Of a stretch of 64,000 nt of DNA, positions 40,204 through 62,061 are shown piece by piece. The notes below the pieces were generated by a model that had not been told where the DNA came from, did not search any database, and was given only the letters and a program-made list of their open reading frames with translations. The stretch is from Hyunsoonleella pacifica. Its GTDB lineage: Bacteria; Bacteroidota; Bacteroidia; Flavobacteriales; Flavobacteriaceae. The position numbers and the translations under genes were made by a program. The DNA lies in assembly GCF_004310335.1 (NCBI RefSeq), contig NZ_SIRS01000001.1, forward strand, positions 186,001 to 250,000. Reading direction: 5' to 3'. Numbering within the stretch: position 1 is the stretch's first letter; every line of letters begins with the position of its first letter.

Positions 40204-41661
40204 ATGAAAGTAACAAAAACCTTATTACAAAAATCTATTTTTATTCTGTTTACTACAGTTTTTAGTCTTGTATCATGTAATACAAATGACGAAGATAGTA
40301 TAGATCAAACCAATGTTGAAAATGCTAGTGAAATAAACTTAACAGCAAGCTCTAGTAGTGAAATGACAGCAACTCAAACTGTTGATATTTGGTTATATAC
40401 TAATAACAGAATAGCTATATCTAACGAATTTTTTGGTGTTAATAACAACTGGAGAACTATAACAAATTCTGATTATTCTACTTTCGAGAATAAATTAGAG
40501 TCAATAAATTATCAAGGTATAAGATTTCCAGGTGGCTGGGAATCAGAATACTATGACTGGAATACCGATACAACACCTAATTGGTCTAATGCGCCAGCAG
40601 TCCCAGGAGCTTCTATTTCAACCGTATTAGGAACTAATCCGCCAAGTTTAAGTATAGTGGTGCCAACTGTAGACGCGATGAATTTATCACAATGGTCAAC
40701 ACAATGGTGGGCTGCTATACAAACGCTTAAAACAAAAGCTGTAGATGCTATTAATGCAGCTGGAGCTAATAATATATTAAGTGTTGAAGTAGGAAATGAA
40801 TGGTGGTTGCAATGGGCAGGAGGCGTATCGCGTTCCAATAAATTAAATAAGTATTCCCATATAGCAAAGCGAGTTGTAAAGCATATTCGTCAAACTTTTC
40901 CAAGCGCCAACTTTAAAATTTTGGTTAATGGAGATTTTACAGAGCCAAGTGAGTTTACTACTATGAATACTATATTTGGAAATGACCTTAGTTTTGCTGA
41001 TGGTGTTGCATTACATCCTTACGCTGGATATAATAGTACAACTCATAACATAGCTAACGTGCAATCTGATATTATAGCGTGTAGAGATAATTTTGGGAAA
41101 AATTATGTCCATTTATCTGAGTGGGCACCGTCAAAAGCGTACAACAATAATAAAGTATATGCTCAAGGCGCTAATGTATTAGTGGAATTAACACATGAAT
41201 TGGCGAGATCAGGTGCTGATGCTGCTGCGTTTTGGCCTCCAAAAAACACTTCAATTCCTGGTCTTGGATTATTTAGTAGTAATTATAATGTAACATACCC
41301 AACTGCACAGATTTTTGGGGATATGTCTCAAAACTATACTGGAGATGCTTTGGCAACCACTACCAATGGTGCTATAAAGGCAGTGGCATCTAGAAATGGA
41401 AATAGAATTACTGTGTATGTAGCGGGGATGGATGAACCAAATACTACAGTGCGTTTACGTGTAGTTGGTGCTAGTCCACAAACAAGCCCTGTATCATCTC
41501 ATATTTTTCTACCAGGAAATACTTCTAATACGGCTGCGGCAACACCAATGACTTTAACTACAAATCCATCTACTTATAATAATAGTTTTACCGGGTATGA
41601 GTTTAATGTTAATGCACAATCCCAATATTCAATTCATCGCTTAATTTTTGATGTGAATTAG
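40204..41661 (+). CDS. Putative clan GH-A glycosidase, GNEWW/LSEW family (paralogue C)
   Basis: Lipoprotein (LVSC, lipid Cys at 25) and close sister of the gene at 38458. Shared features: GVNNNWRTI, GIRFPGGWESEYYDW, EVGNEWWLQWAGG with predicted acid/base Glu199, HLSEWAPSKAYNNNK with predicted nucleophile Glu306, and AAFWPPKNTSIPGLGLF. It has a Ser-rich linker (LTASSSSEM) after the acidic lipoprotein head, as expected for surface export. Around residues 155-165 it has SQWSTQWWAAIQ where B has KEGVDADNWLEV, a local difference that may change substrate binding. Single-gene unit with its own upstream motif and downstream hairpin. Function inferred only from the barrel-type motifs. Confidence 0.7.
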   Translation: MKVTKTLLQKSIFILFTTVFSLVSCNTNDEDSIDQTNVENASEINLTASSSSEMTATQTVDIWLYTNNRIAISNEFFGVNNNWRTITNSDYSTFENKLESINYQGIRFPGGWESEYYDWNTDTTPNWSNAPAVPGASISTVLGTNPPSLSIVVPTVDAMNLSQWSTQWWAAIQTLKTKAVDAINAAGANNILSVEVGNEWWLQWAGGVSRSNKLNKYSHIAKRVVKHIRQTFPSANFKILVNGDFTEPSEFTTMNTIFGNDLSFADGVALHPYAGYNSTTHNIANVQSDIIACRDNFGKNYVHLSEWAPSKAYNNNKVYAQGANVLVELTHELARSGADAAAFWPPKNTSIPGLGLFSSNYNVTYPTAQIFGDMSQNYTGDALATTTNGAIKAVASRNGNRITVYVAGMDEPNTTVRLRVVGASPQTSPVSSHIFLPGNTSNTAAATPMTLTTNPSTYNNSFTGYEFNVNAQSQYSIHRLIFDVN

Positions 41662-48023: not shown

Positions 48024-48142
48024 AGATTTCTATAAAAACTAAACCTATAATTTTCTTATTAAATAATTATTGATGCATCTATTTGAGAAATCTTCAATAA
48101 TTATTCGTCTACGTAAATTTATTAGTTTTTTAGATAAAAAAA

Positions 48143-48164
48143 TACGTATTTATACTTAGTTTTG
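48143..48164 (+). promoter_or_regulatory. Operator overlapping the -7 element of nirB
   Basis: TACGTATTTATACTTA (48143-48158) differs at 2 of 16 positions from the perfect palindrome found before the nitrate reductase and globin genes. Its last TA is the first TA of a -7 element TAGTTTTG (48157-48164). The ATG follows 17 bases later. TACGTA also occurs at 48173-48178 and near 48110. Confidence 0.65.
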
Positions 48165-48181
48165 TTGTAAAATACGTAATT

Positions 48182-50698
48182 ATGAAAAGTGTTATTGTAG
48201 TTGGAAATGGTATGGTAGGTTATAAATTTTGTGAAAAATTTGTAGCTCAAGAAGAAAGTGGAAACTTCAAAATAACTGTTTTTGGAGAAGAACCAAGGCC
48301 AGCTTATGATAGGGTACACTTAAGTGAGTTTTTCGAAAATCAAGATGCTAAGGCTTTGGAAATGGCACCAGCTAGTTGGTATGCCGACAATAAAATTGAT
48401 TTGATTACAGGAGAGCGCGTAGCAGATATCAATAGAGCTTCAAAAACAATAACTACAGCTAAAGACCGTGAATTTTCTTATGATTACTTAGTTTTAGCAA
48501 CAGGCTCTTCTCCTTTTGTTCCGCCAATTAAGGGTGTAGAGAAAGAGGGCGTTTTTGTTTATAGAACTATCGAAGATTTAGAAGGTATGTTGGATTATGC
48601 AGCGAAATTAAAAGCTGATAAGCCAAATGCAAAAGCAGCTGTTTTAGGAGGTGGTTTGTTAGGTTTAGAGGCTGGTAAAGCTGTTATGGATATGGGGCTA
48701 GAACCTCACATTGTTGAGTTTGCGCCTAAGCTAATGCCAAGACAACTAGACTCAAGAAGCTCTCAGGTATTACAATTAAAGTTAGAATCTATTGGATTAA
48801 ATATTCATTTAAGTAAAGCAACTAATCAAATTTTAGGTAATGGTGCTATCACGGGAATGGAGTTTGGAGAGGATGATACTTTAGATGTAGATATGCTGAT
48901 TGTTTCTGCAGGAATAAGACCTAGAGACGAACTAGCTAGAGCATGCGGGTTAGATGTTGGAGTTCGTGGTGGTGTTGTAGTAGATAATACTATGAAGACT
49001 TCTGACGAGAGTATCTATGCTATTGGAGAAATAGCACTATACAACCAAATGATTTATGGTTTGGTAGCTCCAGGTTACGACATGGCTGACATTGCTGTAC
49101 AACAGATTATTGGTAATGCAGATTCTAAAATGCCAGAAGACATAGATATGTCTACCAAGCTTAAATTGATAGGCGTTGACGTAGCTAGTTTTGGAGAACC
49201 GTTTATGCCAGCTTCAAAGGGGCATTCTATAATTTTTGAGAATAAAACACAATATTTATATAAACGTATTAATGTAAGCCATGACGGGAAGAAACTCTTA
49301 GGAGGTATTTTAGTTGGAGACGCTGCAGATTACAGTATGCTGCATCAAGTATATTTAAATGGAATGGCTATTCCTGAAGATCCTGCGCAGTTAATATTGC
49401 CAGCAAGTGAAGGTGGTGCTTTACTTGGGGATGTTATGGATTTACCAGATGAAGCACAGATTTGTTCTTGTGAAAGTGTTACTAAAGGACAAATTTGTGG
49501 GGTTATTGAAAATGAAGAAGCTACGGATTTAGCAGGTGTAGTTAGTTGTACAAAAGCAGGTACAGGTTGTGGTGGTTGTAAGCCTATGGTGGCAGATTTA
49601 ACCAATGCTACTCTTAAATCTTTAGGTATAGAAGTTAAAGATTCTGTTTGCGAGCATTTTGATCTTAACAGGCAGGATTTATATAAAATAATTCAAGTAA
49701 AAGGTTATACGAAGTTTAATGAAGTATTAGATAATCATGGAAATGGTGGTCACGGTTGTGAATTATGTAAACCATTAGTAGCGTCATTGATGGCGACTAT
49801 TCATGCAGATACGGCTAATAAAGAGTATGCAATTCAAGATTCAAATGATAGATTTTTAGCTAATATTCAGCGTAACGGAACATACTCTGTGGTGCCAAGG
49901 GTTCCTGGTGGAGAGATAACACCAGATAAACTTATTGCGCTTGGAGAGATTGCAAAGAAATACGATTTATATACCAAAATTACAGGAGGTGTTCGTATCG
50001 ATTTATTCGGTGCTACTTTAAATCAATTGCCATTAATTTGGAAAGAATTGATTAGTCATGGTTTTGAGAGTGGACATGCTTATGGGAAGTCGTTGAGAAC
50101 AGTAAAAACTTGTGTAGGGTCTACATGGTGTCGTTACGGTATGGACGAAAGTGTGAGTTTTGGTATAGAACTAGAAAACCGCTATCGTGGTATTCGTGCA
50201 CCACATAAAATAAAAGGTGGTGTGTCTGGATGTATTCGTGAATGTGCGGAAGCCAGAGGAAAGGATTTTGGTTTAATTGCTGTTGAAGGTGGGTGGAATT
50301 TATATGTTGGAGGAAACGGTGGTGCAAACCCACGTCATGCAGAATTATTTGCTGAACAAATAGATAACGAAACTGTTATTAAATACCTAGATCGTTACTT
50401 AATGTTTTATATGCGTACAGCCAAACCTTTACAACGTACTGCTGCATGGCAAGAGCGGTTAGAGGGTGGTTTAGATTATTTGAAAGAAGTAATTATTGAT
50501 GATAAACTGGGTATAGCAGAAGATTTAGAAACCGAAATGCAGACCTTAGTAAATAGGTTTGAATGTGAGTGGACACAAGCGGTTAATGATCCTGAAATGA
50601 TGAAGCGTTTCAATCATTTTGTTAATAGCGAAGAAGAAGACGATAATTTGGTTTTTGTGCCAATGCGAGATCAGAAAATGCCAAAGCAATGGGCTTAG
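48182..50698 (+). CDS. nirB: NAD(P)H-dependent assimilatory nitrite reductase, large subunit
   Basis: Cytoplasmic enzyme that reduces nitrite to ammonium with electrons from NAD(P)H. Order: FAD/NAD-binding pyridine nucleotide oxidoreductase region (about 1-400, VVGNGMVGYKFCEKF, LATGSSPFVPP, AVLGGGLLGLEAGKA and VSAGIRPRDELARACG). Two BFD-like [2Fe-2S] segments follow, the first with CSCESVTKGQICG and GTGCGGC, the second with HGCELCKP. Then come the nitrite/sulfite reductase half domains (from about 545, NIQRNGTYSVVPRVPGGEITP). The siroheme-4Fe4S ligands lie in TCVGSTWCRYG and SGCIRECAEARGKD. Length (838) is normal. The small subunit gene nirD follows after 246 bases that contain a repeated-type element. 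Preceded by the three-copy operator. Confidence 0.96.
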   Translation: MKSVIVVGNGMVGYKFCEKFVAQEESGNFKITVFGEEPRPAYDRVHLSEFFENQDAKALEMAPASWYADNKIDLITGERVADINRASKTITTAKDREFSYDYLVLATGSSPFVPPIKGVEKEGVFVYRTIEDLEGMLDYAAKLKADKPNAKAAVLGGGLLGLEAGKAVMDMGLEPHIVEFAPKLMPRQLDSRSSQVLQLKLESIGLNIHLSKATNQILGNGAITGMEFGEDDTLDVDMLIVSAGIRPRDELARACGLDVGVRGGVVVDNTMKTSDESIYAIGEIALYNQMIYGLVAPGYDMADIAVQQIIGNADSKMPEDIDMSTKLKLIGVDVASFGEPFMPASKGHSIIFENKTQYLYKRINVSHDGKKLLGGILVGDAADYSMLHQVYLNGMAIPEDPAQLILPASEGGALLGDVMDLPDEAQICSCESVTKGQICGVIENEEATDLAGVVSCTKAGTGCGGCKPMVADLTNATLKSLGIEVKDSVCEHFDLNRQDLYKIIQVKGYTKFNEVLDNHGNGGHGCELCKPLVASLMATIHADTANKEYAIQDSNDRFLANIQRNGTYSVVPRVPGGEITPDKLIALGEIAKKYDLYTKITGGVRIDLFGATLNQLPLIWKELISHGFESGHAYGKSLRTVKTCVGSTWCRYGMDESVSFGIELENRYRGIRAPHKIKGGVSGCIRECAEARGKDFGLIAVEGGWNLYVGGNGGANPRHAELFAEQIDNETVIKYLDRYLMFYMRTAKPLQRTAAWQERLEGGLDYLKEVIIDDKLGIAEDLETEMQTLVNRFECEWTQAVNDPEMMKRFNHFVNSEEEDDNLVFVPMRDQKMPKQWA

Positions 50699-50806
50699 GA
50701 ATGCGTTTATTCGTTGAATGGGCAGGTTTGTTAAAACGATAAAAAAAGGTAAAAGAGGCTTTTACAAGTATTAGAGAATAAGAGATTTATGAAGTAATTG
50801 GCAAGT

Positions 50807-50908
50807 ACTCCTGCGTTAGGGATTGCAGAGAAAAGCCCACAGCCCGACGAAGGAGGTGCGAGGACTTGTAACGAAAAGCCTGACCCGACTTTAGGAGGGG
50901 AACGCCCT
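50807..50908. repeat. GC-richer intergenic element of a type common in Flavobacteriaceae
   Basis: This 102-base stretch between nirB and nirD starts actcctgcgttagggattg, contains AGCCCGACGAAGGAGG and CCTGACCCGAC, and ends GGAACGCCCT. It is much richer in G and C than its surroundings. From memory, very similar strings (CTGCGTnAGGGATnGCAG ... AAAGCCC ... GACCCG ... GGGnACGCCC) recur between genes in many Flavobacteriaceae; their function is unknown. Only one copy is in this window, so the repeat claim rests on recognition, not on counting. Confidence 0.5.
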
Positions 50909-50944
50909 AATAAAAATTTAGATTTAAAATAATATATTTTATAG

Positions 50945-51322
50945 ATGGAACATATATTGGAACAGTACGTATCGGTTACAGAAAAGGAAACGAATACCTG
51001 GTTTAAAGTGGGGTTGACTACAGATTTTCCTGAGGATGGAGGTGCTTGTGTAAAGTACAAAACTAAGCAGATTGCGGTGTTTAATTTTGCAAGAACTGGT
51101 AACTGGTATGCTTGCCAAAATTTGTGTCCGCATAAGATGGAGATGGTGATAAGTCGTGGTATGATTGGTGATGATAAAGGCATACCGAAAGTGGCTTGTC
51201 CGCTACATAAAAAAACATTTTCATTAGAGAATGGAGAGAATTTAAATGGCGATTTAGAAGCTATAGCTACATATCCTGTTAAGGTTGAAAATGGGTTTGT
51301 TTATGTGGGCTTTAATGAATAA
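50945..51322 (+). CDS. nirD: Nitrite reductase small subunit, Rieske type
   Basis: Small cytoplasmic partner of NirB (125 residues), with a Rieske-type [2Fe-2S] fold. The two ligand motifs are NLCPHKM and ACPLHKKTF, giving the Cys-x-His and Cys-x2-His sets. The segment YACQNLCPHKMEMVISRGMIG and the closing YPVKVENGFVYVGF are typical. In many bacteria NirD lacks a cluster; here all four ligands (2 Cys, 2 His) are present, so a cluster is possible. The ATG at 50945 is preceded only by an AT-rich run. It lies 246 bases after nirB, a longer distance than usual for this pair. Confidence 0.93.
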   Translation: MEHILEQYVSVTEKETNTWFKVGLTTDFPEDGGACVKYKTKQIAVFNFARTGNWYACQNLCPHKMEMVISRGMIGDDKGIPKVACPLHKKTFSLENGENLNGDLEAIATYPVKVENGFVYVGFNE

Positions 51323-51389
51323 AATTTGGGTAACTAACTTTAATAACTACTAACCAGATTGTTTTTTATCTAGCATATAGAATGTATAT

Positions 51390-51490
51390 AAACCAAAGAT
51401 TGCGGTATTGCAAGAGTTATAAGAATAAAGGTTATTAAATTACTTAGACAAATTTTATACTCTGAGTTACTACCGCAAAGTCTTTGGTTT
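51390..51490. other. Long imperfect hairpin between nirD and the DUF4202 gene
   Basis: aaaccaaagattgcggta (51390-51407) is complementary to 51471-51490 (taccgcaaagtctttggttt) over 18 bp with a 2-base bulge (AG), enclosing about 63 bases. Inside, AGAGTTATA and TATACTCT can pair further. No T-run follows directly. It could be an RNA leader structure for the DUF4202/sensor operon, an mRNA end structure for nirD, or a small MITE-like element. Confidence 0.55.
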
Positions 51491-51611
51491 TAAATTTTAA
51501 TTTAAAATGAGACTAAATTTTGGTTAGTATTTTAAAATTCTAATAATCTCGTTACAATTAAAAAAGTAATTCTGTATATTGGCTACATAGCGTTAAAATT
51601 CACATAACTAT

Positions 51612-52196
51612 ATGAAACCAACACGTTTTGAAACAGCCATTGCACTTATTGATAAAGCGAATTCTGAAGATGTAAACACGTATCAAGTTGCTGGTATTGA
51701 ATACCCTAAGGAGCTCTTGTATTCTCAAAGAATGACACGAAAGTTATTGCAATTTAAACCAGATGCGTCTAAAGCATTACAAATTGCAGCTCGTGCCCAA
51801 CATATTTGCAGGTGGAAAATTGCACGTGATGAATACCCAATGGACAGAGTTGGTTATTTAAAATGGCGTGAAACACTTAAAAAGATGCATGCTGATTTAA
51901 CGTCAGATATATTAAAACAAGTAGGGTATGATGAGCAATTTGATGATAGAATTCGAAAAATAATACTAAAGAAACTCATCAAGAAAAATGAAGAGTCTCA
52001 AGCTTTAGAAGACACTATCTGTTTGGTGTTTTTGGATTACTATTTTGAAGAATTTGCTGAAAAACATCCTGATGAGAAAGTAATAGACATCCTCCAAAAA
52101 ACATGGGTTAAAATGTCTGAAGAAGGGCAACAAGAAGCTTTAAAACTTAATTTTTCGGAAAAATCTTTGGGCTTGATAAAACAAGCTATAGCATAA
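51612..52196 (+). CDS. DUF4202 family protein
   Basis: Predicted cytoplasmic, mostly helical protein of 194 residues belonging by pattern to DUF4202, a family of unknown function often found beside nitrite/nitrate assimilation genes. Strings seen: MKPTRFETAIALIDKANSED at the start, ELLYSQRMTRKLLQFKP, IAARAQHICRWKIARDEYP with conserved His and Arg, and LVFLDYYFEEFAEKH. The arrangement of His, Asp and Glu residues could form a metal site like that of HD-type proteins, but this is inference. It starts after a hairpin-containing spacer and ends 12 bases before the NarX-like sensor gene, so the two are co-transcribed. Confidence 0.85.
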   Translation: MKPTRFETAIALIDKANSEDVNTYQVAGIEYPKELLYSQRMTRKLLQFKPDASKALQIAARAQHICRWKIARDEYPMDRVGYLKWRETLKKMHADLTSDILKQVGYDEQFDDRIRKIILKKLIKKNEESQALEDTICLVFLDYYFEEFAEKHPDEKVIDILQKTWVKMSEEGQQEALKLNFSEKSLGLIKQAIA

Positions 52197-52208
52197 ACTT
52201 TTTTTAAT

Positions 52209-54023
52209 ATGGCACAAAACGGCAATTCATTAGACCAACGGACTTTTGATAAGCTGCGTCGTTTGTACATCATTGGGTTTAGTACCATAGCACTTTCTGT
52301 TATTATAAGTCAAATTTTAATTCGTACCCATTTAAGTGGTCAGGAAAGTGATTCTAGGGTTATAAACATTGCAGGACGACAGCGTATGCTGAGTCAAAAG
52401 TTGGCAAAAGATGTACTTTCATTCTCTACGACTTCCAGTTTAAAAGACAAGTTGTTAATTAAAGAAGATTTAAAGGCTACTTTGAAGCTTTGGGAATTTT
52501 CTCATCATGCATTGCAAAATGGTAATGATAGTCTAAGTTTACCCAAGAAAAATAGTGTTGAGGTAACTAAGAAATTCAAAGTTTTAAATCCGGTTTTTGA
52601 TACGATAGCTGCTGCTTCAAAATCTATCATTAAAAAAATAGAAAGCACACCTACTTTAACATACACTTCTTATGCTGAAGACATTGAAAAAGTAAAAGCT
52701 TATGAAGCTGATTTTTTGGGTCAGATGGATGCTATAGTAAATCAATATGATAATGAAGCAGAAGAAAAAGTAGCATGGTTGCGGCAGTTGGAAACATGGT
52801 TAACTATTTTAACCTTATTAATTCTTCTAGGAGAGTTTTTATTTATTTTTTGGCCAGCAGCTAAATCAGTACGCTACACATTAGCTGAATTATTGTTTGC
52901 AGAAAAACGTGCTAAGAAAATGGCTTTTGATGCTGATGAATTAAGTAAAGCTAAAGAGAAATATATACAAGAGCTAAGTGCTTTAAGTCGTGTGATGGAT
53001 GATACTTTACTATTTGCACGTATTTTGCCAAGTGGGAATTTGGTTCACATGGGGAACAAATTCTCAAGGCTATTTAAGTTTACAAAATTTAATGACAATG
53101 CTTTGTTTTGGAATGTATTATCCTCTGTTGATACCGAACAAGAAATTATTGAAGATATTATTACAAAACATAAAAAAACAGGATGGCAAGGAGAAGTTAA
53201 AGCAACATGTAAAGATGGAAGAGATGTGTGGTTAGAAATGGCTATTATTCCATATAGTCCCATAGAAGAGAAATCTGAATTGTTAATAATTGCCTCTGAA
53301 ATCACAGAACGTAAGGTGGCACAATTAGAGATAGATAGACTTACTGAAAAAAGTTTTGAGGAAAAAATGAATCAGCAAAAAATCATTTCCAGTAAGATTA
53401 TTGAAAATCAGGAAAAGGAGCAAAATCGTATTGCTAAAGATGTGCATGATGGTATAGGACAAATGTTAACGGGTTTAAAATACAACCTAGAGAGTATTGA
53501 TCCTAAAGATGTAGAAAAAGCTACCGTTAAAATTGAACATTTAAAAGAGTTGACGGCTAATATTATTAAAGGCGTAAGAACAGCAACTTTCAATTTAACA
53601 CCACCAGAATTAACAGACCATGGAATTGTGCCTGCTTTAACCAAATTAACACATGAATTAGGACGCTTAACAGGGAAAGAAATTGTGCTCTTCAATAAGA
53701 CCGATTTCAATCAAAGATTAGATTCGCTTTCAGAAATTAATATATATAGAATAGCACAAGAAGCAATTAATAACGCTATAAAATATGCCGAGTCTACTCA
53801 TATCATAGTGTCTTTATCTCACAGTAAAAACATGTTAAGTGTTGTAATAGATGATAATGGTAAGGGCTTTAATCCTAATACAGTTAAAAAAGTAAAAACT
53901 GGAGATGGCGGTATGGGAATGACTTTTATGCAAGAGCGTATAAAGTATATTGATGGTCGATTATTTTTAACTTCTGAAGCTAGTAAAGGTACACGAGTTA
54001 CTTTAAATATTCCATTAAAATAA
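52209..54023 (+). CDS. NarX-like membrane sensor histidine kinase
   Basis: Inner-membrane sensor kinase, probably for nitrate or nitrite. The N-terminal helix (about 19-38) is followed by a PilJ/NarX-type periplasmic four-helix domain. It contains SRVINIAGRQRMLSQKLAKD (about 52-71), the same kind of sequence as the nitrate-binding P-box of NarX. A second helix lies at about 197-217, then a coiled coil, a PAS domain (about 255-375) and a HisKA_3 dimerisation domain with phospho-acceptor His413 in AKDVHDGIGQ. The HATPase_c domain follows (NIYRIAQEAINNAIKYAES, DDNGKGF, GDGGMGM). The matching LuxR-type response regulator is encoded at 54513, separated by a RidA gene. Overlaps none; 12 bases after the DUF4202 gene. 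Confidence 0.9.
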   Translation: MAQNGNSLDQRTFDKLRRLYIIGFSTIALSVIISQILIRTHLSGQESDSRVINIAGRQRMLSQKLAKDVLSFSTTSSLKDKLLIKEDLKATLKLWEFSHHALQNGNDSLSLPKKNSVEVTKKFKVLNPVFDTIAAASKSIIKKIESTPTLTYTSYAEDIEKVKAYEADFLGQMDAIVNQYDNEAEEKVAWLRQLETWLTILTLLILLGEFLFIFWPAAKSVRYTLAELLFAEKRAKKMAFDADELSKAKEKYIQELSALSRVMDDTLLFARILPSGNLVHMGNKFSRLFKFTKFNDNALFWNVLSSVDTEQEIIEDIITKHKKTGWQGEVKATCKDGRDVWLEMAIIPYSPIEEKSELLIIASEITERKVAQLEIDRLTEKSFEEKMNQQKIISSKIIENQEKEQNRIAKDVHDGIGQMLTGLKYNLESIDPKDVEKATVKIEHLKELTANIIKGVRTATFNLTPPELTDHGIVPALTKLTHELGRLTGKEIVLFNKTDFNQRLDSLSEINIYRIAQEAINNAIKYAESTHIIVSLSHSKNMLSVVIDDNGKGFNPNTVKKVKTGDGGMGMTFMQERIKYIDGRLFLTSEASKGTRVTLNIPLK

Positions 54024-54080
54024 AATAACACTGATTATAATTCTGAGTATGTTTTAGCATCTCAAATTTTTAAATTATAA

Positions 54081-54470
54081 ATGAAAAGAAAATTAATAAG
54101 TACAGGTTCAACATTTGAAGAGAAAATAGGATATTCAAGAGCTGTAGTGCAAGGAGATTGGGTGTTTGTATCGGGAACAACTGGCTACAATTATGAAACT
54201 ATGACGATAAGCGATAATATTGTAGAACAAACAGAACAATGCTTCATCAATATTAAAAGCACACTGGAGCAGGCAGAATCTAATTTGTCAGATATAGTTA
54301 GAATTACATACATTTTACCAAATGCTCTGGATTTTGAAAACTGCTGGCCTGTACTTCAGAAGTACTTAGGTAATATTAAACCAGCAGCCACTATGTTTGC
54401 TGCTGGTTTAGCTGATGAAAACATGAAAATTGAAATTCAGGTTACGGCTTTAAAAAAATCAAATACGTAG
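54081..54470 (+). CDS. RidA/YjgF/YER057c family protein
   Basis: Small cytoplasmic protein (129 residues) of the RidA superfamily, which in its best-studied members hydrolyses reactive enamine/imine intermediates of amino acid metabolism. Typical strings are SRAVVQGDWVFVSGTTGYNYETM, QTEQCFINIKSTLEQAESNLSDIVRITYIL and PAATMFAAGL. The Arg normally needed for imine binding (RxxxxVxxL-type position) may correspond to the Arg in VRITYIL; the end lacks the common IEIEAIA pattern but has IEIQVTA. It sits between the sensor kinase and response regulator genes. Its link to nitrate control is unknown. Confidence 0.85.
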   Translation: MKRKLISTGSTFEEKIGYSRAVVQGDWVFVSGTTGYNYETMTISDNIVEQTEQCFINIKSTLEQAESNLSDIVRITYILPNALDFENCWPVLQKYLGNIKPAATMFAAGLADENMKIEIQVTALKKSNT

Positions 54471-54485
54471 TTTTACTTAATTTCT

Positions 54486-54493
54486 TACTTTTG
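54486..54493 (+). promoter_or_regulatory. -7-like element before the response regulator
   Basis: TACTTTTG matches TAnnTTTG and lies 19 bases before the ATG at 54513, suggesting a very short leader and a promoter separate from the sensor kinase. No clear -33 element. Confidence 0.45.
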
Positions 54494-54512
54494 TACTCAT
54501 ATTTTTTAATTT

Positions 54513-55178
54513 ATGGATAAAATCAACGTAGTACTGGCTGACGATCATATTCTAGTAAGGGATGGTATTAGAGCTTTACTTGAAGATCAAACTGGAATTG
54601 AAGTTATTGACGAAGCTTCAAATGGTAAAGAGGCTTTAGAGGTTATTAGCAAAAACAAACCCCATGTACTTATAGTTGATATTAGAATGCCAGAAATGAC
54701 AGGTATAGAGGTAGTTGGAGCAATTAATGAATCTGACTCTGATGTTAAAACATTGGTGCTCTCCATGCATGACTCTGAGGAATACGTAGTACAAGCTATA
54801 CAAGCAGGTGCAGACGGTTATTTGTTAAAAGGGGCTAGTAAAGAGGAATTTATAAAAGCACTAAATAAAGTTGCATCTGGAGGCAAGTATTTTACAGGAG
54901 ATATTTCGGCAATTATTATGAATAATTTCGTGAATGGTAATACTAACGTAGCAGTAGAGCCAAAGTCTGTCCCCAAAGCGGACCCATTTAATCTTACCAA
55001 ACGTGAAAAACAAATTTTAAGTTTAGTGCTAGAATTAAAAAATAATAAAGATATCGCCGAAGAACTTAAAATAAGTAAGCGTACTGCCGAAGTACACCGT
55101 TTTAACTTGATGAAAAAGTTAGAGGTGTCTAATTTAAAAGAATTAACAGATAAGGCTAAGGAATTTGGATTAGTGTAG
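54513..55178 (+). CDS. NarL/FixJ-type response regulator
   Basis: Cytoplasmic two-component regulator (221 residues), probable partner of the NarX-like kinase at 52209. The receiver domain (1-120) has the acidic pair DDH near the N-terminus, phospho-acceptor Asp56 in IVDIRMPEMTG, the conserved Thr/Ser in LVLSMHD and Lys in YLLKGAS. The LuxR-type helix-turn-helix (about 155-221) reads LTKREKQILSLVLELKNNKDIAEEL and KISKRTAEVHRFNLMKKL. A short -7-like element lies directly upstream, so it may be made independently of the kinase. Downstream lies a decayed small gene and then the nitrate reductase promoter. Confidence 0.93.
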   Translation: MDKINVVLADDHILVRDGIRALLEDQTGIEVIDEASNGKEALEVISKNKPHVLIVDIRMPEMTGIEVVGAINESDSDVKTLVLSMHDSEEYVVQAIQAGADGYLLKGASKEEFIKALNKVASGGKYFTGDISAIIMNNFVNGNTNVAVEPKSVPKADPFNLTKREKQILSLVLELKNNKDIAEELKISKRTAEVHRFNLMKKLEVSNLKELTDKAKEFGLV

Positions 55179-55217
55179 TCTGAAAATAATTAGTTATTCA
55201 AATAACATGAAGATTAT

Positions 55218-55537
55218 TTGATAAACTTTATTGAAGAAAATCCTAAATATTTTGGGATATTCTTTTTACTAATTACCATACTTTGGTTGGTTTGCGGTTT
55301 ATAAGATTAAAAAAAATGAGCCAATAGATTTTAATAATAGAAGCATTGTATTTTAGAATGTTTTTAATTAATGGTTTAGCTCTACTTGTAATGTTATTTA
55401 TTTTAGCATTTTTTTATTATTCGATTGAGTATTTTATTAAAATAGCTACCCCTTTTTCTTTTGATTTTACTAAATCCATAAAATCAATCCACTCAAATTA
55501 TCAACTTCATATAAATTACGAGATACTTAAAAATTAG
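55218..55537 (+). pseudogene. Probable frameshifted remnant of a small membrane protein gene
   Basis: Three successive reading frames give protein-like pieces that join naturally. 55218-55304 (TTG start) encodes NFIEENPKYFGIFFLLITILW and ends in TAA. From about 55300, YKIKKNEPIDFNNRSIVF lies in the +1 frame. From about 55355, RMFLINGLALLVMLFILAFF runs in a third frame to the TAG at 55537. Together they resemble a two-helix membrane protein of roughly 100 residues interrupted twice. I do not recognise the family for certain. It could instead be chance AT-rich coding. The rest of the 556-base gap 55179-55734 holds the nitrate reductase operator and a leader of about 165 bases. Confidence 0.35.
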
Positions 55538-55546
55538 CATTAAAAT

Positions 55547-55568
55547 TAAGTATTAATACTTAGATTTG
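55547..55568 (+). promoter_or_regulatory. Palindromic operator overlapping the -7 element of the nitrate reductase gene
   Basis: TAAGTATTAATACTTA (55547-55562) is a perfect 16-bp palindrome. Its last TA begins the -7 element TAGATTTG (55561-55568). The ATG is at 55735, giving a leader of about 160 bases. The same architecture precedes nirB and the globin gene. Confidence 0.72.
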
Positions 55569-55734
55569 TAAATGCGGTCTTGTTTTATTTCTGTTGCATA
55601 GAACTATTATTTTAAATATAAATTTTACCAAAAATTAAATTTAAAAGACATTTTTTGAAGTATTCAGAATAATAAAGTTAGTGCTTGCTTTCGAAAAATA
55701 AATTATAGTAATTAGTATAAAATGTTGGTTTGAA

Positions 55735-58700
55735 ATGATAAAAAGCGAAGTAAAAACTACCTGTTCTTATTGTGGAGTTGGCTGTGGAATCATTGTTAAG
55801 AAAGATGCCAATAATCAAGTATTCGTTGAAGGCGATAAGGATCATCCCGTAAACAAAGGCATGTTATGTTCCAAAGGCATGAATTTGCATTATGTTGCTA
55901 ACGATACTTCTGATAGGATTTTATATCCAGAAATGCGCTGGAGTAGATCTCATCCTAGAGAACGCGTAAGTTGGGATGATGCTTTAGATAGAGCTGCTAG
56001 CGTTTTTAAATCGATAATTAAAAAACACGGTCCAGATAGTGTTGGGTTTTATGTTTCTGGACAAAGTTTAACAGAAGAATACTATATAGCTAATAAACTA
56101 ACCAAAGGGTTTTTAGGTACAAATAACATAGATACGAACTCACGTTTATGTATGAGTTCAGCTGTGGTTGGTTATAAAAAAACGTTTGGAGAAGATAGTG
56201 TACCTATTTCCTATGCTGATATTGAATTGGCAGATACGTTTTTGATTACAGGAGCAAACCCAGCTTGGTGTCATCCTATTTTATTTAGACGATTAGAAAA
56301 GCATAAAGAGGAAAATCCTGATGTAAAACTTATAGTTGTTGATCCAAGAAAAACGGATACAGCAAATTTTGCAGACTTACATTTGCAACTATTACCAGGA
56401 ACCGATGTAGTACTTTACAATGCTATTGGAAGATGTTTATATAAGCGTGGTTTAATTGATGAAGACTTTATTAAGAATCATACAGAAGGATTTCAAGATT
56501 ATAAAGAGTTAATCTTTAAAACATCATTAAAACAGGCGTCGAAGTTATGTGGTGTGCCAGAAAAGGATATACGTAAAGCTGCTGATATTATCGGACTTTC
56601 AAAAGGCTTTATAAGTATGTGGGCCATGGGCTTAAATCAAAGTGTGGTAGGGACAGATAAGAATGTATCATTACTAAACTTATCTTTAATTACTGGGCAA
56701 GTTGGAAAACCAGGGGCGGGTCCATTTTCATTAACGGGGCAGCCTAATGCCATGGGTGGACGTGAAGTCGGAGGAATGGCAAACCTTTTGGCGGTTCATA
56801 AAGATTTAATGAATGAAGAGCATAGGCGAGAAGTAGCTCAGTTTTGGGGTGTAGATCAAATTAACCCTAAACCCGGATTAACAGCTACCGAAATGTTTGA
56901 TGCTTTAGAAAGTGGCAAAATGAAAGCTGTTTGGATTGCTTGTACAAATCCGTTGGTGAGCTTACCAAATTTAAATCGTGTTGAAAAAGCCATGAAAAAT
57001 GCAAAGTTTGTTGTGGTTCAAGATATATCTCATAAATCAGACACCGTAGCTTTTGGAGATTTGGTACTTCCAGCTGCTGCATGGTTAGAGAAAGAAGGTA
57101 CGATGACAAATTCTGAAAGAAGAATTTCATACTTACCAAAAGAAATTGAAGCCCCAGGAGAAGCAAGGCCTGATGTTGAAATCTTTTGTGATTTTGCACA
57201 GCGTATGGGCTTTAGAGGATTCAATTTTAATAGTGCTAGTGAGATTTATGATGAGTATGCCTCTATGACCAAAGGGACTAATATTGATGTGTCTTACTTA
57301 AACTATGACAGGCTTAAGAATGAAGGTACATTTCAATGGCCCGTGCCTGAGCATAGACATCAAGGAACGTCTAGATTATTTGAAGATAAAAAGTTTTATA
57401 CACCATCACAAAAGGCTAAATTCAATATGCCAACATCAATTGTTAATACATCAGTATTACCAAATGATACTTATCCACTAATTTTAACCACAGGACGTAT
57501 ACGAGACCAATGGCACACCATGACCAAAACGGGTAAAGTGTCGCGTTTAAAAACACATTATCCTACACCTGTTTTAGAAATTCATCCGGTTGATGCCTAT
57601 TTATACAAAATAGAAGATGGAGATATTACTGAAATAAAGAGTGAGAATGGGGAAGTTAGAGTGCGAGCAAGCGTCACAGAAAATATTAAAAAGGGCGTTG
57701 TGTTTTTGCCAATGCACTGGGGAAAACAATTACAAAGTAATTTAAATAGAACCAACAATTTAACAAATACACACGTAGATCCAACATCAAAGGAGCCAGA
57801 TTTTAAGTTTACGCGAGTAATTGTTTCAAAATATAAAAAACAAGCAGAAAAAATCATAATTGCTGGTGCTGGTGCGGCGGCATTTCGCTTTGTTCAGAAT
57901 TATAGAGAGCAAAATGAAACAGATGAAATCCATGTGTTTTCTAAAGAACCCAACCTATTTTACAATAGGGTACTGTTACCTGAGTATGTAACAGAAGAAT
58001 TATCATGGGAACAGCTTTTAAAAATCAAGAAAACAGAGTTAGATAAGCTTAATGTACATCTACATCCAGAAACTACAATATCAAAGATAGATAAAGACAA
58101 CAAAGTAGTTTCGGATAGCAATGGATTAGCACATACTTTTGATAAATTAATTTTAGCTACAGGAAGTCGAGCCTTTGTACCAAAAGATGTGCAAATAGAT
58201 TTGCCTGGACGTTTTACGATGCGAAATAAAATTGATGCTGATAAATTTAAGAAGCACTTAGACGCAACGGGGCTTCCTCCTGAAGAACAACATGTAGTGA
58301 TAGTTGGTGGTGGTTTACTTGGTTTAGAGTTAGCTGCAGCAATGAAACACAAGAATGCTAAAATTACCATTATACAACGGGCATCGCGTTTAATGGAACG
58401 TCAGTTAGATAAAGTATCTAGTAAATTATTAGCCTTAGATGTTCAAGAGCGAGGCATTCAAATTTATTTTGATAATGAAGTAAGTACGGTGTTTGATGAT
58501 GAAGATACAGGAGAATTAAACATCACTTTAAAAAGTGGTAAAAGCATAACAGCTAATGCTATTGTGTATGCTATAGGTACCATTCCTAATGTGGATATTG
58601 CTAGAGCAAATGGTATTGCCTGTAGTAGAGGTGTTAAGGTTAATCAACATTTACAATCCTCACATCCAGATATTTTTGCCATTGGAGAGATAGCAGAATT

Positions 58701-59256
58701 TAATAATCAACTGTTTGGAATTACATCTGCGGCAGAAGAGCAGGCTAATATTTTAGCTAATTTTATTGCAGGAGATGTGAGTAGCTCATATAACGGTTCA
58801 GTATTGATGAATATCTTAAAATTTAACGATTTGAATTTGTGTAGTATTGGAGATATTAGTGTGCCAGAGCGTGATGATAGCTATGAAGAAATCATTTTTA
58901 CAGATATTAAAAAGCGTTATTATAAAAAGTGTATTGTAAAAGATGATCTTTTGGTTGGTGCAGTCTTAATGGGTGATAAAAATGAATTTGCCGAATTTAA
59001 GACGATGATTGAAAGTAAAATTGAAATGGCCGATAAGCGAAACACGTTGCTTAGAGGGTCTTCTAATGATGCACCAATTATAGGAAAGCTAGTGTGTTCA
59101 TGTAGCCAAGTAGGGCAAGGAAATATCGAAGAAACTATCTCGCAAGGATGTACAGATTTTACAGAATTATGTAACAAAACAGGCGCAGGTATAGGTTGTG
59201 GAAGTTGTAAAACAGAAGTTAGAGAAATACTTCAAAATTCAAAAGTATTAGCATAA
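55735..59256 (+). CDS. Assimilatory nitrate reductase fused to FAD/NAD reductase and BFD-like domain
   Basis: Single-chain cytoplasmic nitrate reductase (1173 residues) that can probably take electrons from NAD(P)H itself. N-terminal [4Fe-4S] domain: CSYCGVGCG with Cys10, 13, 17 and Cys45. Molybdopterin oxidoreductase region (about 60-480) with Mo-ligand candidate Cys139 in SRLCMSSAV and GQPNAMGGREVGGMANLL. A molybdopterin dinucleotide-binding domain follows (about 575-690, LTTGRIRDQWHTMTKTG). A pyridine nucleotide-disulphide oxidoreductase domain (about 700-1000, IIAGAGAAAFRFVQ, LATGSRAFVP and VIVGGGLLGLELAAA) resembles the front half of NirB. The end is a BFD-like [2Fe-2S] domain (CSCSQVGQGNIEE and GAGIGCGSCKTE). 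In many bacteria these modules are on separate proteins. The next gene overlaps its stop by one base. Confidence 0.92.
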   Translation: MIKSEVKTTCSYCGVGCGIIVKKDANNQVFVEGDKDHPVNKGMLCSKGMNLHYVANDTSDRILYPEMRWSRSHPRERVSWDDALDRAASVFKSIIKKHGPDSVGFYVSGQSLTEEYYIANKLTKGFLGTNNIDTNSRLCMSSAVVGYKKTFGEDSVPISYADIELADTFLITGANPAWCHPILFRRLEKHKEENPDVKLIVVDPRKTDTANFADLHLQLLPGTDVVLYNAIGRCLYKRGLIDEDFIKNHTEGFQDYKELIFKTSLKQASKLCGVPEKDIRKAADIIGLSKGFISMWAMGLNQSVVGTDKNVSLLNLSLITGQVGKPGAGPFSLTGQPNAMGGREVGGMANLLAVHKDLMNEEHRREVAQFWGVDQINPKPGLTATEMFDALESGKMKAVWIACTNPLVSLPNLNRVEKAMKNAKFVVVQDISHKSDTVAFGDLVLPAAAWLEKEGTMTNSERRISYLPKEIEAPGEARPDVEIFCDFAQRMGFRGFNFNSASEIYDEYASMTKGTNIDVSYLNYDRLKNEGTFQWPVPEHRHQGTSRLFEDKKFYTPSQKAKFNMPTSIVNTSVLPNDTYPLILTTGRIRDQWHTMTKTGKVSRLKTHYPTPVLEIHPVDAYLYKIEDGDITEIKSENGEVRVRASVTENIKKGVVFLPMHWGKQLQSNLNRTNNLTNTHVDPTSKEPDFKFTRVIVSKYKKQAEKIIIAGAGAAAFRFVQNYREQNETDEIHVFSKEPNLFYNRVLLPEYVTEELSWEQLLKIKKTELDKLNVHLHPETTISKIDKDNKVVSDSNGLAHTFDKLILATGSRAFVPKDVQIDLPGRFTMRNKIDADKFKKHLDATGLPPEEQHVVIVGGGLLGLELAAAMKHKNAKITIIQRASRLMERQLDKVSSKLLALDVQERGIQIYFDNEVSTVFDDEDTGELNITLKSGKSITANAIVYAIGTIPNVDIARANGIACSRGVKVNQHLQSSHPDIFAIGEIAEFNNQLFGITSAAEEQANILANFIAGDVSSSYNGSVLMNILKFNDLNLCSIGDISVPERDDSYEEIIFTDIKKRYYKKCIVKDDLLVGAVLMGDKNEFAEFKTMIESKIEMADKRNTLLRGSSNDAPIIGKLVCSCSQVGQGNIEETISQGCTDFTELCNKTGAGIGCGSCKTEVREILQNSKVLA

Positions 59257-60695
59257 TGGAGCCATACAGATTAATGATTAACGGCGGTGTATTATCACCA
59301 GGAGAATTAAAATATATTTGTGAAGCTGCTGAAGGTTTAGGATTAGATGCTATATCTTTTGGATCACGACAAGACATTATTTTTCCAGAGGAAATCGATG
59401 AAAGTAAGTTTAGTCAATTTGATAAAATACAATTTGTAAAACCTAAGAGAGACGGTGTAGAAAATATAGCGTCATCTTATGTATCCTCTGAAATTTTACC
59501 AAGTACCTCTTGGTTAACCAGTGATAGGTATCTGTATGTTTTAGAGCAGTTTAAACACAACCCAAAACTTAGGATTAATGTAATAGATCCTAAACAGCGC
59601 TTAGTACCTTTGTTTACAGGTAACGTGAATTTTATAGCTTCAGAGCATGAAGATTACTGGTATTTATACTTGCGATTACCAGGTTGGGAAAATACCAAAA
59701 TGTATCCCGCTTTAATTTATAGTTGGGATATGGATAAAGTCGAACTCGCCATAGAGAATATTTTAATTGAGGAACCCGAAACCATAGATATGGTTTTTGA
59801 TTTGGTTAATGATGCTATTGAAACAAATAATCGTACAGTAGATAAACCCTTAGAAGTGCCTTTTTACCCTTTTCCATACTATGAAGGTATGAATCGTATC
59901 GGGCCAGATAGGTATTGGTTAGGATTATATTGGAGAAACAACCGTTATGATTTGCCCTTTTTAAAGGCTATGTGCGATTTATGTTCAGAAAACAAAATAG
60001 GAAAAATATCTATTACGCCATGGAAGTCGTTTATTGTTAAAGGGATTCCGTTACATTCAAAATTAAAATGGGAAAAATTCTTAGGTAAATTTGGAATTAA
60101 TGTGCGTCATTCCATGTTGGAAATGAACTGGCATCTTCCCGTAAACGACAAAGAAGCGCTTAATCTAAAAAAGTACTTAGTAACAAATTTTGACCAAAAT
60201 GATATTAGTACTTACGGACTTACTTTTGGTATTACTAGTTACGATAGTGATACATATAATTTTACATCAATTGTAGTCGAAAAGAATAGGCAACCAGAAG
60301 TTAAAAGTGATTTTAAAATAAGGGATACGTATAATTTATTATATGCAAAAAATTTCGACCCAAATACTCGCAAATATATTGTGCATGTTCAAGATGTAGA
60401 TAAAGTAGAATTGCCAGGCTTACTTATGGAATTAAGTAAATTATATTTTGAGCGTTTAGGAGATGAAAAAGAAGAAGAGCTATTACCTCAAACACAAAAG
60501 ATAAGTAGAGAAGAAGAAGTATACCAATGTTCAGAATGTTTAACAGTGTATAGTGAGGCTTATGGAGATGTTACGCAAAATATACCACCCAATACACCAT
60601 TTGATGAATTGCCAGATACTTATGAATGTTCACTTTGTGAAGCTTCAAAGCAAAGTTTTGTAAAGAAAACGTTTCAACTTGTAAATAATCCTTAA
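59256..60695 (+). CDS. Nitrite/sulfite-reductase-like protein with C-terminal rubredoxin domain
   Basis: Cytoplasmic protein of 479 residues. The N-terminal part (about 1-75 and again about 205-300) looks like nitrite/sulfite reductase ferredoxin-like half domains: RLMINGGVLSPGELKYICEAAEGLGLDAISFG, and YYEGMNRIGPDRYWLGLYWRN. I see no siroheme/4Fe-4S Cys set, so it probably does not reduce nitrite on its own. The C-terminus is a rubredoxin, with iron ligands Cys425, Cys428, Cys458 and Cys461 and the NIPPNTPFDELPDTYECSLC pattern. Its ATG shares a base with the stop codon of the nitrate reductase gene (TAATG), so translation is coupled. It is most likely an electron carrier or assembly partner for that enzyme. 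Confidence 0.8.
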   Translation: MEPYRLMINGGVLSPGELKYICEAAEGLGLDAISFGSRQDIIFPEEIDESKFSQFDKIQFVKPKRDGVENIASSYVSSEILPSTSWLTSDRYLYVLEQFKHNPKLRINVIDPKQRLVPLFTGNVNFIASEHEDYWYLYLRLPGWENTKMYPALIYSWDMDKVELAIENILIEEPETIDMVFDLVNDAIETNNRTVDKPLEVPFYPFPYYEGMNRIGPDRYWLGLYWRNNRYDLPFLKAMCDLCSENKIGKISITPWKSFIVKGIPLHSKLKWEKFLGKFGINVRHSMLEMNWHLPVNDKEALNLKKYLVTNFDQNDISTYGLTFGITSYDSDTYNFTSIVVEKNRQPEVKSDFKIRDTYNLLYAKNFDPNTRKYIVHVQDVDKVELPGLLMELSKLYFERLGDEKEEELLPQTQKISREEEVYQCSECLTVYSEAYGDVTQNIPPNTPFDELPDTYECSLCEASKQSFVKKTFQLVNNP

Positions 60696-60726
60696 ATTAA
60701 ATAATGTTAAACCAATTCGTAGTACT

Positions 60727-61458
60727 TTGATTAGTGGTAAAATAGAACATATAACAGAAGGTTTTTGCAATGTTTGTAGCAAAACAAATTGTTTGGTACA
60801 TAACCATCACGAAGTGCTGTTCAATCCTAATTTATCACAAAAAAGTACCCTGTTAAAATGTAAAAAAGGACAACAGTTTATTATGGAGGGGGCTCCAGTA
60901 AATGGACTTTTCTTTATAAAATCAGGTACTGTAAAAGTATTTAGAACGGGTATTAATGGGAGAGAGCAAATCGTTCGCTTTGCTAAACCATGCGAAATTA
61001 TCGGTCATCGAGGTTTTGGTACACAAGAATACTATTCTATTGGGGCTATAGCATTGCAAGAAACTACACTGCACTATTTTTCTAAAGAACATCTACAAAA
61101 AATTCTCTTAGATAATCCTAAGTTTACTTATGATATGATGTTGTTTTATGCAAACGAGCTTAACCGAAGTGAAAACAAGGTAAAGTCTATTTCACAAATG
61201 ACGGTTCGTGAGCGTGTTATCGATTCGTTATTATATATCCATAGAAAGTTTGGAGAGCTTAATGGATTCTTAAACTTGCCCTTAAGTCGTAAGGAATATG
61301 CAGATTATTCGGGAACAACTGAAGAACAAGTTATTCGTGTATTTTCAGCTTTAAAAAAGGAAAAACTAATTTCTGCTCAAGGAAAGAAAATTCGAATATC
61401 AAATATTCAATCACTAAAAAAAGAAATAAGCGACCATAACTATTTCTTAGATACTTAA
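60727..61458 (+). CDS. Crp/Fnr family regulator with N-terminal Cys cluster
   Basis: Transcription factor of 243 residues. A cyclic-nucleotide-type sensor domain (about 40-150) includes FIMEGAPVNGLFFIKSGTVKVFR and is followed by a winged-helix domain (about 160-240) with LPLSRKEYADYSGTTEEQVIRVFSAL; the Glu and Arg of this helix are the usual DNA contacts. The N-terminus has Cys14, Cys17 and Cys22, with further Cys45 and Cys89; FNR uses a C-x2-C-x5-C set plus one more Cys for an oxygen-sensing [4Fe-4S] cluster, so redox or NO sensing is plausible. I accept the TTG at 60727 because it includes the Cys set and no in-frame upstream ATG exists; the next Met (residue 53) would cut the domain. It lies 31 bases after the rubredoxin gene. 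Confidence 0.85.
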   Translation: MISGKIEHITEGFCNVCSKTNCLVHNHHEVLFNPNLSQKSTLLKCKKGQQFIMEGAPVNGLFFIKSGTVKVFRTGINGREQIVRFAKPCEIIGHRGFGTQEYYSIGAIALQETTLHYFSKEHLQKILLDNPKFTYDMMLFYANELNRSENKVKSISQMTVRERVIDSLLYIHRKFGELNGFLNLPLSRKEYADYSGTTEEQVIRVFSALKKEKLISAQGKKIRISNIQSLKKEISDHNYFLDT

Positions 61459-61597
61459 TTATACTTAGTTTTTGTAAGTGTTTTATATAAATTAATGATT
61501 TTTCTGCGTTTTGTCAGCTTTTTAGCTGGATAAAAAGACCATTCTCTACTGTTTTATTTCATGATTAGTTAGAATTATAGGTTCTATTTTTGTTTTC

Positions 61598-61621
61598 AGT
61601 AAGTATTAATACTTACTTTTT
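61598..61621 (+). promoter_or_regulatory. Palindromic operator overlapping the -7 element of the globin gene
   Basis: agtaagtattaatacttact (61598-61617) is a perfect 20-bp palindrome that contains the 16-bp TAAGTATTAATACTTA core. Its TA at 61614-61615 begins TACTTTTT, one base from the TAnnTTTG consensus. The ATG follows at 61648. It lies just after the Crp/Fnr gene. Confidence 0.72.
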
Positions 61622-61647: not shown

Positions 61648-62061
61648 ATGGAAGCAAAAACAGTAACATTAGTACAAGAATCTTTTGAAAAAGTAAAACC
61701 TATCGCTCCTCAAGCAGCTGAAATATTTTATGCCAAACTGTTTGAACTAGATCCTAAACTTAAGCCTTTATTTCCTAGTAGTGACGATGCAATGAAAACC
61801 CAAGGCAATAAATTAATGAGTATGCTAGCCGCAGCAGTAGCCGGATTAAATAATCTAGATGCGTTAGTGCCAGTTTTACAGAATTTAGGAAAACGACATG
61901 TTGACTATAACGTAGAAGCGTCTCATTACCATACTGTAGGGGCTGCTTTATTGGGAACTTTAGAAGCAGGATTAGGTGATGAATTTACACCAGAGGTAAA
62001 AACAGCTTGGACAGATGTTTATGGTGTGATGTCTAATGTTATGATAGAAGCTGCATACTAA
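61648..62061 (+). CDS. Single-domain globin
   Basis: Cytoplasmic haem protein of 137 residues with the flavohaemoglobin-type globin pattern but no reductase domain. Strings: LVQESFEKVKPIAPQAAEIFYAKLFELDPKLKPLF (helices A-C with the CD1 Phe), MKTQGNKLMSMLAAAVAGL (helix E), and LGKRHVDYNVEASHYHTVGAALLGTL, where His in KRHVDY is the likely proximal ligand. Single-domain globins of this type bind O2 or NO and often serve in NO detoxification. It follows the operator shared with nirB and the nitrate reductase, and is 19 bases before a haem-sensor-type lipoprotein gene. An FAD/NAD reductase gene lies further down the same run and could be its electron donor. Confidence 0.9.
   Translation: MEAKTVTLVQESFEKVKPIAPQAAEIFYAKLFELDPKLKPLFPSSDDAMKTQGNKLMSMLAAAVAGLNNLDALVPVLQNLGKRHVDYNVEASHYHTVGAALLGTLEAGLGDEFTPEVKTAWTDVYGVMSNVMIEAAY

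Follow-up and report, generated by a model that had tools for sequence, protein, structure and literature searches.

The nitrate cluster and its palindromes

Several genes of a nitrate assimilation cluster in Hyunsoonleella pacifica (assembly GCF_004310335.1) are preceded by the same short palindrome, and we analysed this element in the window, a 64,000-nucleotide (nt) stretch of contig NZ_SIRS01000001.1 (positions 186,001 to 250,000). The cluster genes were identified by family search. Those with the palindrome upstream lie on the forward strand: nirB, encoding the large subunit of nitrite reductase (48182-50698); narL, encoding a NarL/FixJ-family response regulator (54513-55178); nasA, encoding an assimilatory nitrate reductase fused to a NirB-like flavin adenine dinucleotide (FAD) reductase region and a BFD domain (55735-59256); and a globin gene (61648-62061). 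Also on this strand are genes for a histidine kinase (52209-54023) and for a Crp/Fnr protein with an N-terminal cysteine motif (60727-61458; crp/fnr). A DUF4202 protein is encoded at 51612-52196, and a protein combining a nitrite/sulfite reductase ferredoxin half-domain with a C-terminal rubredoxin at 59256-60695, after the nitrate reductase.

The palindrome TAAGTATTAATACTTA occurs without mismatch before nasA (55547-55562) and before the globin gene (61600-61615), where it forms the core of a 20-bp palindrome (61598-61617). With two mismatches, as TACGTATTTATACTTA, it lies before nirB (48143-48158). These three sites had been proposed in a first-pass annotation, and their coordinates hold. 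A fourth, TACGTAGTTTTACTTA (54464-54479), had been missed; it lies 33 nt before narL and is followed by TACTTTTG (54486-54493). At nirB and nasA, the last TA of the palindrome is also the TA of a TAnnTTTG-type -7 box, TAGTTTTG (48157-48164) and TAGATTTG (55561-55568), respectively. The globin palindrome lies downstream of the box conserved there, TATTTTTG (61585-61592). All of these elements are on the forward strand, as are two further half-sites, TACGTA at 48110-48115, which begins 33 nt before the palindrome of nirB, and TACTTA at 55524-55529, which begins 23 nt before that of nasA.

Counting the 16-mer with mismatches gave results close to chance: at up to three mismatches, the window holds 4 copies against a shuffle mean of 2.62, with 29 of 100 shuffles reaching 4, and at up to two mismatches, the H. 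pacifica genome holds 19 against 13 for a reversed control. For this reason we replaced the 16-mer by a consensus of its arms only, TAMGTA-N4-TACKTA, derived from sites in the genus oriented to their genes (65 of 68 rows were kept; two extra nrtA sites and the manA site were dropped). The consensus occurs at 14 places in the genome against 4 for the reversed control, and the four in the window are the three named earlier plus that of narL. Nine of the 14 precede nitrate or tricarboxylic acid (TCA) cycle genes. The other five, manA and four more, were left out of the target list, the control count being 4; among the labelled genus sites, manA does not recur. The best places of the 16-mer itself precede nasA, globin, nrtA, narK, nirB, sdhC, gltA and acnB, and its remaining places at two mismatches lie within genes or before unrelated genes. 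We named sdhC, gltA, acnB, narK and nrtA in this genome by reading their translations; nrtA (nitrate ATP-binding cassette transporter) lies 9.4 kb beyond the window.

Conservation of the palindrome

In 12 genomes of the genus, TAAGTA-N4-TACTTA occurs 66 times against 13 for the control, and in nine genomes of other genera 3 times against 11. The genus sites recur before nirB, nasA, narK, nrtA, globin, narL, crp/fnr, acnB, sdhC and gltA, with a minority lying before no labelled gene. To follow the consensus more widely we used 80 named loci, the best 80 of 120 relatives found by a scan with the kinase. They come from Algibacter, Hyunsoonleella, Jejuia, Tamlana, Polaribacter, Mariniflexile, Tenacibaculum, Seonamhaeicola and others, and include one metagenome record labelled Thalassovita. 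A gene was scored when the motif lay at most 300 nt upstream, taking the site nearest to the start codon where there were several; genes under the identity threshold, open at the start of the locus or with less than 150 nt of upstream DNA were excluded.

The motif precedes the heads of operons: nirB in 73 of 77 cases, narK in 41 of 44, nrtA in 12 of 12, globin in 4 of 4 and narL in 59 of 75. It is also found before nasA (17/70), which often stands behind narK, and before crp/fnr (4/19). Upstream of genes inside operons it was found in none of 330 cases (nirD 0/78, DUF4202 0/78, narX 0/78, the nitrite reductase-rubredoxin gene nirA-rub 0/63, ridA 0/29, Tll0287 0/4), and shuffled upstream DNA gave 0 to 0.10 motifs per gene set. 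A chance origin of the palindrome in AT-rich promoter DNA, as the 16-mer count in the window, not above that of shuffles, might suggest, is hardly credible against these numbers and those from the family: of 397 genomes there, 94 contain the motif in its form fused to a -7 box, and 6 contain the control pattern (controls were counted by eye). The palindrome is a conserved regulatory element. The first-pass annotation would have counted its proposal as refuted had the motif been as frequent elsewhere in the genome as before nitrogen genes; the excess over control in the H. pacifica genome and in the genus, and the difference between nirB and the internal genes, show otherwise.

Outside the family, 2 of 229 genomes match and 3 match the control, which is no evidence for the motif there. 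These figures come from a class-wide draw of 237 genomes, the other eight of which belong to the same family as H. pacifica, and three of those match.

A related arrangement, TACGTA-N4-TACGTA before a TTTG box, was seen in the family genomes G149, G337, G317, G158, G186, G248 and G402. The three of these that were tested (G149, G158 and G186) have no NarL-like gene, and the element may be a different operator with no relation to the first, or a chance match. In seven loci, an open reading frame (ORF) divergent from nirB shares its operator; this ORF resembles a methyltransferase of siroheme synthesis (motif VGAGPG...LIT). Of the 80 named loci, 78 contain a homologue of the DUF4202 protein.

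The targets had originally been described as nitrogen-oxide genes. This description fits better when narrowed to nitrate assimilation; nrtA, narK and narL also belong to the predicted regulon, as do three TCA-cycle genes in some close relatives. Sites precede acnB in 6 of the 7 genus genomes that have the gene, sdhC in 4 of 12 and gltA in 3 of 12. At acnB the arms are constant and the spacer varies (TAGA, TTAA). AcnB was not found in 5 of the 12 genus genomes (one of them 87% complete), and these five have no site before sdhC or gltA. At these genes the regulator is predicted to act in some close relatives only. Part of one genus may have brought citrate synthase, aconitase and succinate dehydrogenase under the influence of nitrate sensing, which would link nitrogen with carbon metabolism. 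The same sites could be taken to mean that an unlinked global regulator binds the palindrome and that the nitrate cluster is one target among several. We consider this very unlikely, since the TCA-cycle sites are patchy even within the genus, whereas the motif recurs around the nitrate cluster with its NarX- and NarL-like genes across genera and precedes narL itself.

A candidate nitrate-sensing two-component system

Both partners of a nitrate-responsive two-component system appear to be encoded among the target genes. The kinase matches the PilJ/NarX-like N-terminal sensor domain (PF13675) at 56.7 bits, with a cut-off of 26.6, and its translation contains a P-box, INIAGRQRMLS, that fits the nitrate-binding G-x-x-R motif as printed in PMC8199190. 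Its transmitter consists of HisKA_3 (PF07730, 37.9 bits) and HATPase_c (PF02518, 57.8 bits) domains; there is also a weak PAS_9 match (23.3 bits, under the cut-off of 27), and no HAMP domain matched at an E-value of 0.001. The response regulator has a receiver domain (PF00072, 103 bits) and a LuxR-type helix-turn-helix (PF00196, 62.6 bits). As in the NarX/NarQ-NarL/NarP systems of E. coli, a kinase with a PilJ/NarX sensor domain and G-x-x-R P-box is thus combined with a NarL-family regulator. In contrast to those systems, the proteins in the window miss the NCBIfam equivalog cut-offs for NarQ (92.2 against 553 bits), NarX (72.3 against 578) and NarL (141.1 against 250).

Two proteins had been put forward as the regulator, this NarL-like protein and the Crp/Fnr protein. 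We compared their occurrence in 80 genomes, 50 motif-positive (G021 to G236, leaving 41 later ones and three of the own genus) and 30 motif-negative, the latter hand-picked from G025 to G078 at completeness of at least 99% (G012, G039, G053, G062 and G065 omitted). At thresholds of E 1e-50 for the NarL-like protein and below 1e-70 for Crp/Fnr, where the next, weaker matches start at 2e-40, a NarL-like orthologue is present in 45 of the 50 positive genomes and 1 of the 30 negative ones, and a Crp/Fnr orthologue in 34 and 0, respectively (one of the 34, in G146, has an internal stop). The NarL-like gene accompanies Crp/Fnr in all 34, so that Crp/Fnr occurs alone in none, while 11 genomes have the NarL-like gene only (G030, G049, G101, G140, G148, G161, G182, G190, G195, G230 and G236). 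The motif precedes nitrate genes in 12 of 12 clusters from these 11 and from G043, the motif-negative genome that carries the NarL-like gene.

The earlier proposal of a single regulator is supported, and of its two candidates the NarL-like protein stands. The Crp/Fnr protein was rejected as the regulator and is very improbable in that role: 16 of the 50 motif-positive genomes lack it, 11 of which keep the NarL-like gene and the motif before nitrate genes. In its favour, its gene adjoins the sites, and its recognition helix, read against those of CRP and FNR, retains the E...R pair of the family. The palindrome, however, is unlike the FNR or CRP consensus and resembles the site of FixJ. The crp/fnr gene is itself preceded by a site in 10 genus relatives, though in the wider set in only 4 of 19 cases, and looks like a target rather than the regulator.

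The NarL-like protein of these loci has a nearly invariant recognition helix (residues 188-202, S-K-R-T-A-E-V-H-R-F-N-L-M-K-K). Across 102 loci, which encode 93 different proteins sharing 52 to 96% identity, 11 of the 15 positions are identical, the other four are conserved in 88 to 97 loci, and all proteins fit S[KR]RTxExHRFNLM[KR]K. The closest solved structures to its DNA-binding domain are EsrB and FixJ, and its helix aligns to that of FixJ, with which it shares S.RT.EVHR.N.M.K. The operators are alike too. FixJ binds TAAGTAATTTCCCTTA before rhizobial fixK, and its consensus from systematic evolution of ligands by exponential enrichment (SELEX) is GTAMGTAG, as quoted in PMC4999443. Compared with the fixK operator as given there, the flavobacterial site is likewise a 16-bp dyad with an identical left arm, TAAGTA, and an identical TAMGTA core. 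It differs in being a near-perfect palindrome and in lying in the core promoter, whereas fixK is protected at -69/-44 and -57/-31 (PMC4999443), and the sensor of the FixJ system is of the oxygen type where that of the cluster is of the nitrate type.

From the helix, the site and the co-occurrence, the palindrome is very likely bound by the response regulator encoded among its targets. Two findings weigh against so direct a reading. Five of the 50 motif-positive genomes (G032, G104, G149, G158 and G186) have neither protein, which means that some hits of the pattern are chance or another element. In addition, NirB and the NarL-like protein go together without exception (46 of 46 genomes), so the co-occurrence separates the NarL-like protein from Crp/Fnr and not from the nitrate cluster as a whole.

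The 6-4-6 layout is not peculiar to this system. The TodT/StyR box, ATAAAC-N4-GTTTAT, is a palindrome of the same layout bound by a FixJ-family response regulator, with different arms and a different pathway. Relative to the 7-2-7 heptamers of E. coli NarL, the arms of the flavobacterial operator are inverted. Readings of the palindrome as an NtcA site or as NarL heptamers were weighed and dropped.

Kinases of this class, regulators of this family and sites of this type are already known. A class of Bacteroidetes nitrate-sensing kinases (class i) is described in the review PMC8199190, and its sensor domain, transmitter and neighbourhood of nitrate genes agree with what is seen in the window; of the PAS domain and the lack of HAMP that mark this class, the kinase shows a PAS match under the cut-off and no HAMP match. 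In the passages of that review consulted here, no operator or regulon is named for the class. Our literature search, which covered titles and the beginnings of abstracts among top-ranked results, mostly outside subscription journals, returned nothing on this operator or regulon, and none of those results dealt with the pairing of regulator and operator or with placement in the core promoter. To our knowledge, few operators have been defined for marine Flavobacteriaceae, and the comparison offers a predicted regulator-operator pair with a list of targets that can be read from the sequence.

Promoter geometry and the sign of regulation

The palindrome takes three positions relative to the -7 box. 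In the named loci, TAnnTTTG is fused to it, starting at +14 from the palindrome start, in 64 of 73 sites at nirB, 40 of 41 at narK, 16 of 17 at nasA and 3 of 4 at crp/fnr; the narK of H. pacifica is an exception. At narL the box follows at +22 to +25 (56/59), and at nrtA and globin it precedes the palindrome, at -15 to -17 (11/12) and -14 to -16 (4/4), respectively. Nine of 210 sites have no TAnnTTTG between -30 and +35. In three genomes with less similar kinases (G161, G195 and G236), the nrtA site is fused to the box. At sdhC we saw TAnnTTTT-like boxes only and, with no exact TAnnTTTG, make no claim on geometry.

Identical geometry had been claimed for nirB, nasA and globin. It stands for the first two, where the register recurs, and fails for globin. 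The globin box proposed then, TACTTTTT, recurs in only 1 of 7 other genus loci (G002), with TTTG at that position in 0 of 8, while a TAnnTTTG box just upstream of the palindrome is present in 8 of 8. With the box at -12 to -5, as located in PMC6847099 and PMC9723704, the palindrome would span about -26 to -11 in the fused class, -37 to -19 at narL and +4 to +20 at nrtA.

Taken together, we think it probable that the palindrome is the operator of a nitrate-sensing two-component system that acts, on balance, by occlusion. The kinase would read nitrate, and the response regulator would bind TAMGTA-N4-TACKTA as a dimer. Wherever the -7 box recurs, the site would fall within the footprint of RNA polymerase: on the box at nirB, nasA, narK and often crp/fnr, just upstream of it at narL, and just downstream, over the transcription start, at globin and nrtA. 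A bound dimer would exclude polymerase, and a nitrate-dependent change in phosphorylation would free the promoter. That the regulator binds there, that nitrate is the signal, where transcription starts and in which direction the regulator acts are our inferences. If the regulator is the NarL-like protein, we lean towards occlusion and give activation a somewhat smaller, though substantial, chance. Occlusion is favoured because all three positions lie in the core promoter, because the distance to the box differs by up to 3 nt among narL sites and up to 2 nt among nrtA sites, because the nrtA site is of the downstream type in 11 of 12 named loci yet fused in G161, G195 and G236, and because a further full palindrome is found upstream at only 4 of 210 sites (overlapping, at -10, in three and at -165 in one).

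Other features sit less well with occlusion. Of 120 fused boxes, 90 have G at -10 (nirB 50/64, narK 29/40, nasA 11/16), against 1 of 74 boxes of narL, nrtA, globin and crp/fnr and 575 of the 2840 TAnnTTTG elements present overall in the 80 loci. Because this base is nearly absent at that position in Flavobacterium johnsoniae promoters, according to the promoter analysis in PMC6847099, the nirB, narK and nasA promoters look weak by themselves. TTG at the -33 spacing is rare, though the same analysis describes this element as weak in F. johnsoniae generally. TACKTA half-sites lie 23-24 nt upstream of the palindrome at narK (34/41) and nasA (11/15) and 33 nt upstream at nirB (26/73), and in some genomes (G182, G230, G236, G146 and G021) form arrays with a 10-bp period. 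These conserved half-sites look like the anchoring of an activator, as does another complete palindrome that lies 22 nt upstream of the nrtA site in G161. In G004 and G011, a second palindrome stands before the -7 box of nrtA. Kinases of the NarX type are switched on by nitrate in E. coli, which fits activation. Finally, if nitrate relieves occlusion, it is not obvious why TCA-cycle genes should carry sites.

The same regulator could therefore act with the opposite sign. Once phosphorylated, it may activate nirB, narK and nasA from the palindrome in the spacer together with a half-site further upstream, making up for the weakness that G at -10 gives their -7 box. Repression would then be confined to genes with the site elsewhere (narL, globin and nrtA). 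We regard this as a serious possibility, although we think it the less probable outcome. A dimer at the fused site would cover T-12 and A-11, bases that sigma needs; further full palindromes upstream are as scarce as noted above; and nrtA is fused in some clades and of the downstream type in others. A more general form seems to us rather unlikely: in Bacteroidetes, sigma-A promoters would be activated by a response regulator whose dimer, bound at about -26 to -11 in fusion with the -7 box and helped by the half-site, makes usable the box that G at -10 cripples in nitrate-use promoters. We know of no such core-promoter activation by a NarL/FixJ-family regulator in Bacteroidetes, though we did not search for it as such. 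Since the palindrome takes three distinct promoter positions, repression and activation should be distinguishable.

Elsewhere in the window, two adjacent and highly similar ORFs (38458-39906 and 40204-41661) appear lipoprotein-like, with a third relative at 18799. The same stretch also holds sulfatase-like and glycosidase-like ORFs; all of these were recognised by eye.

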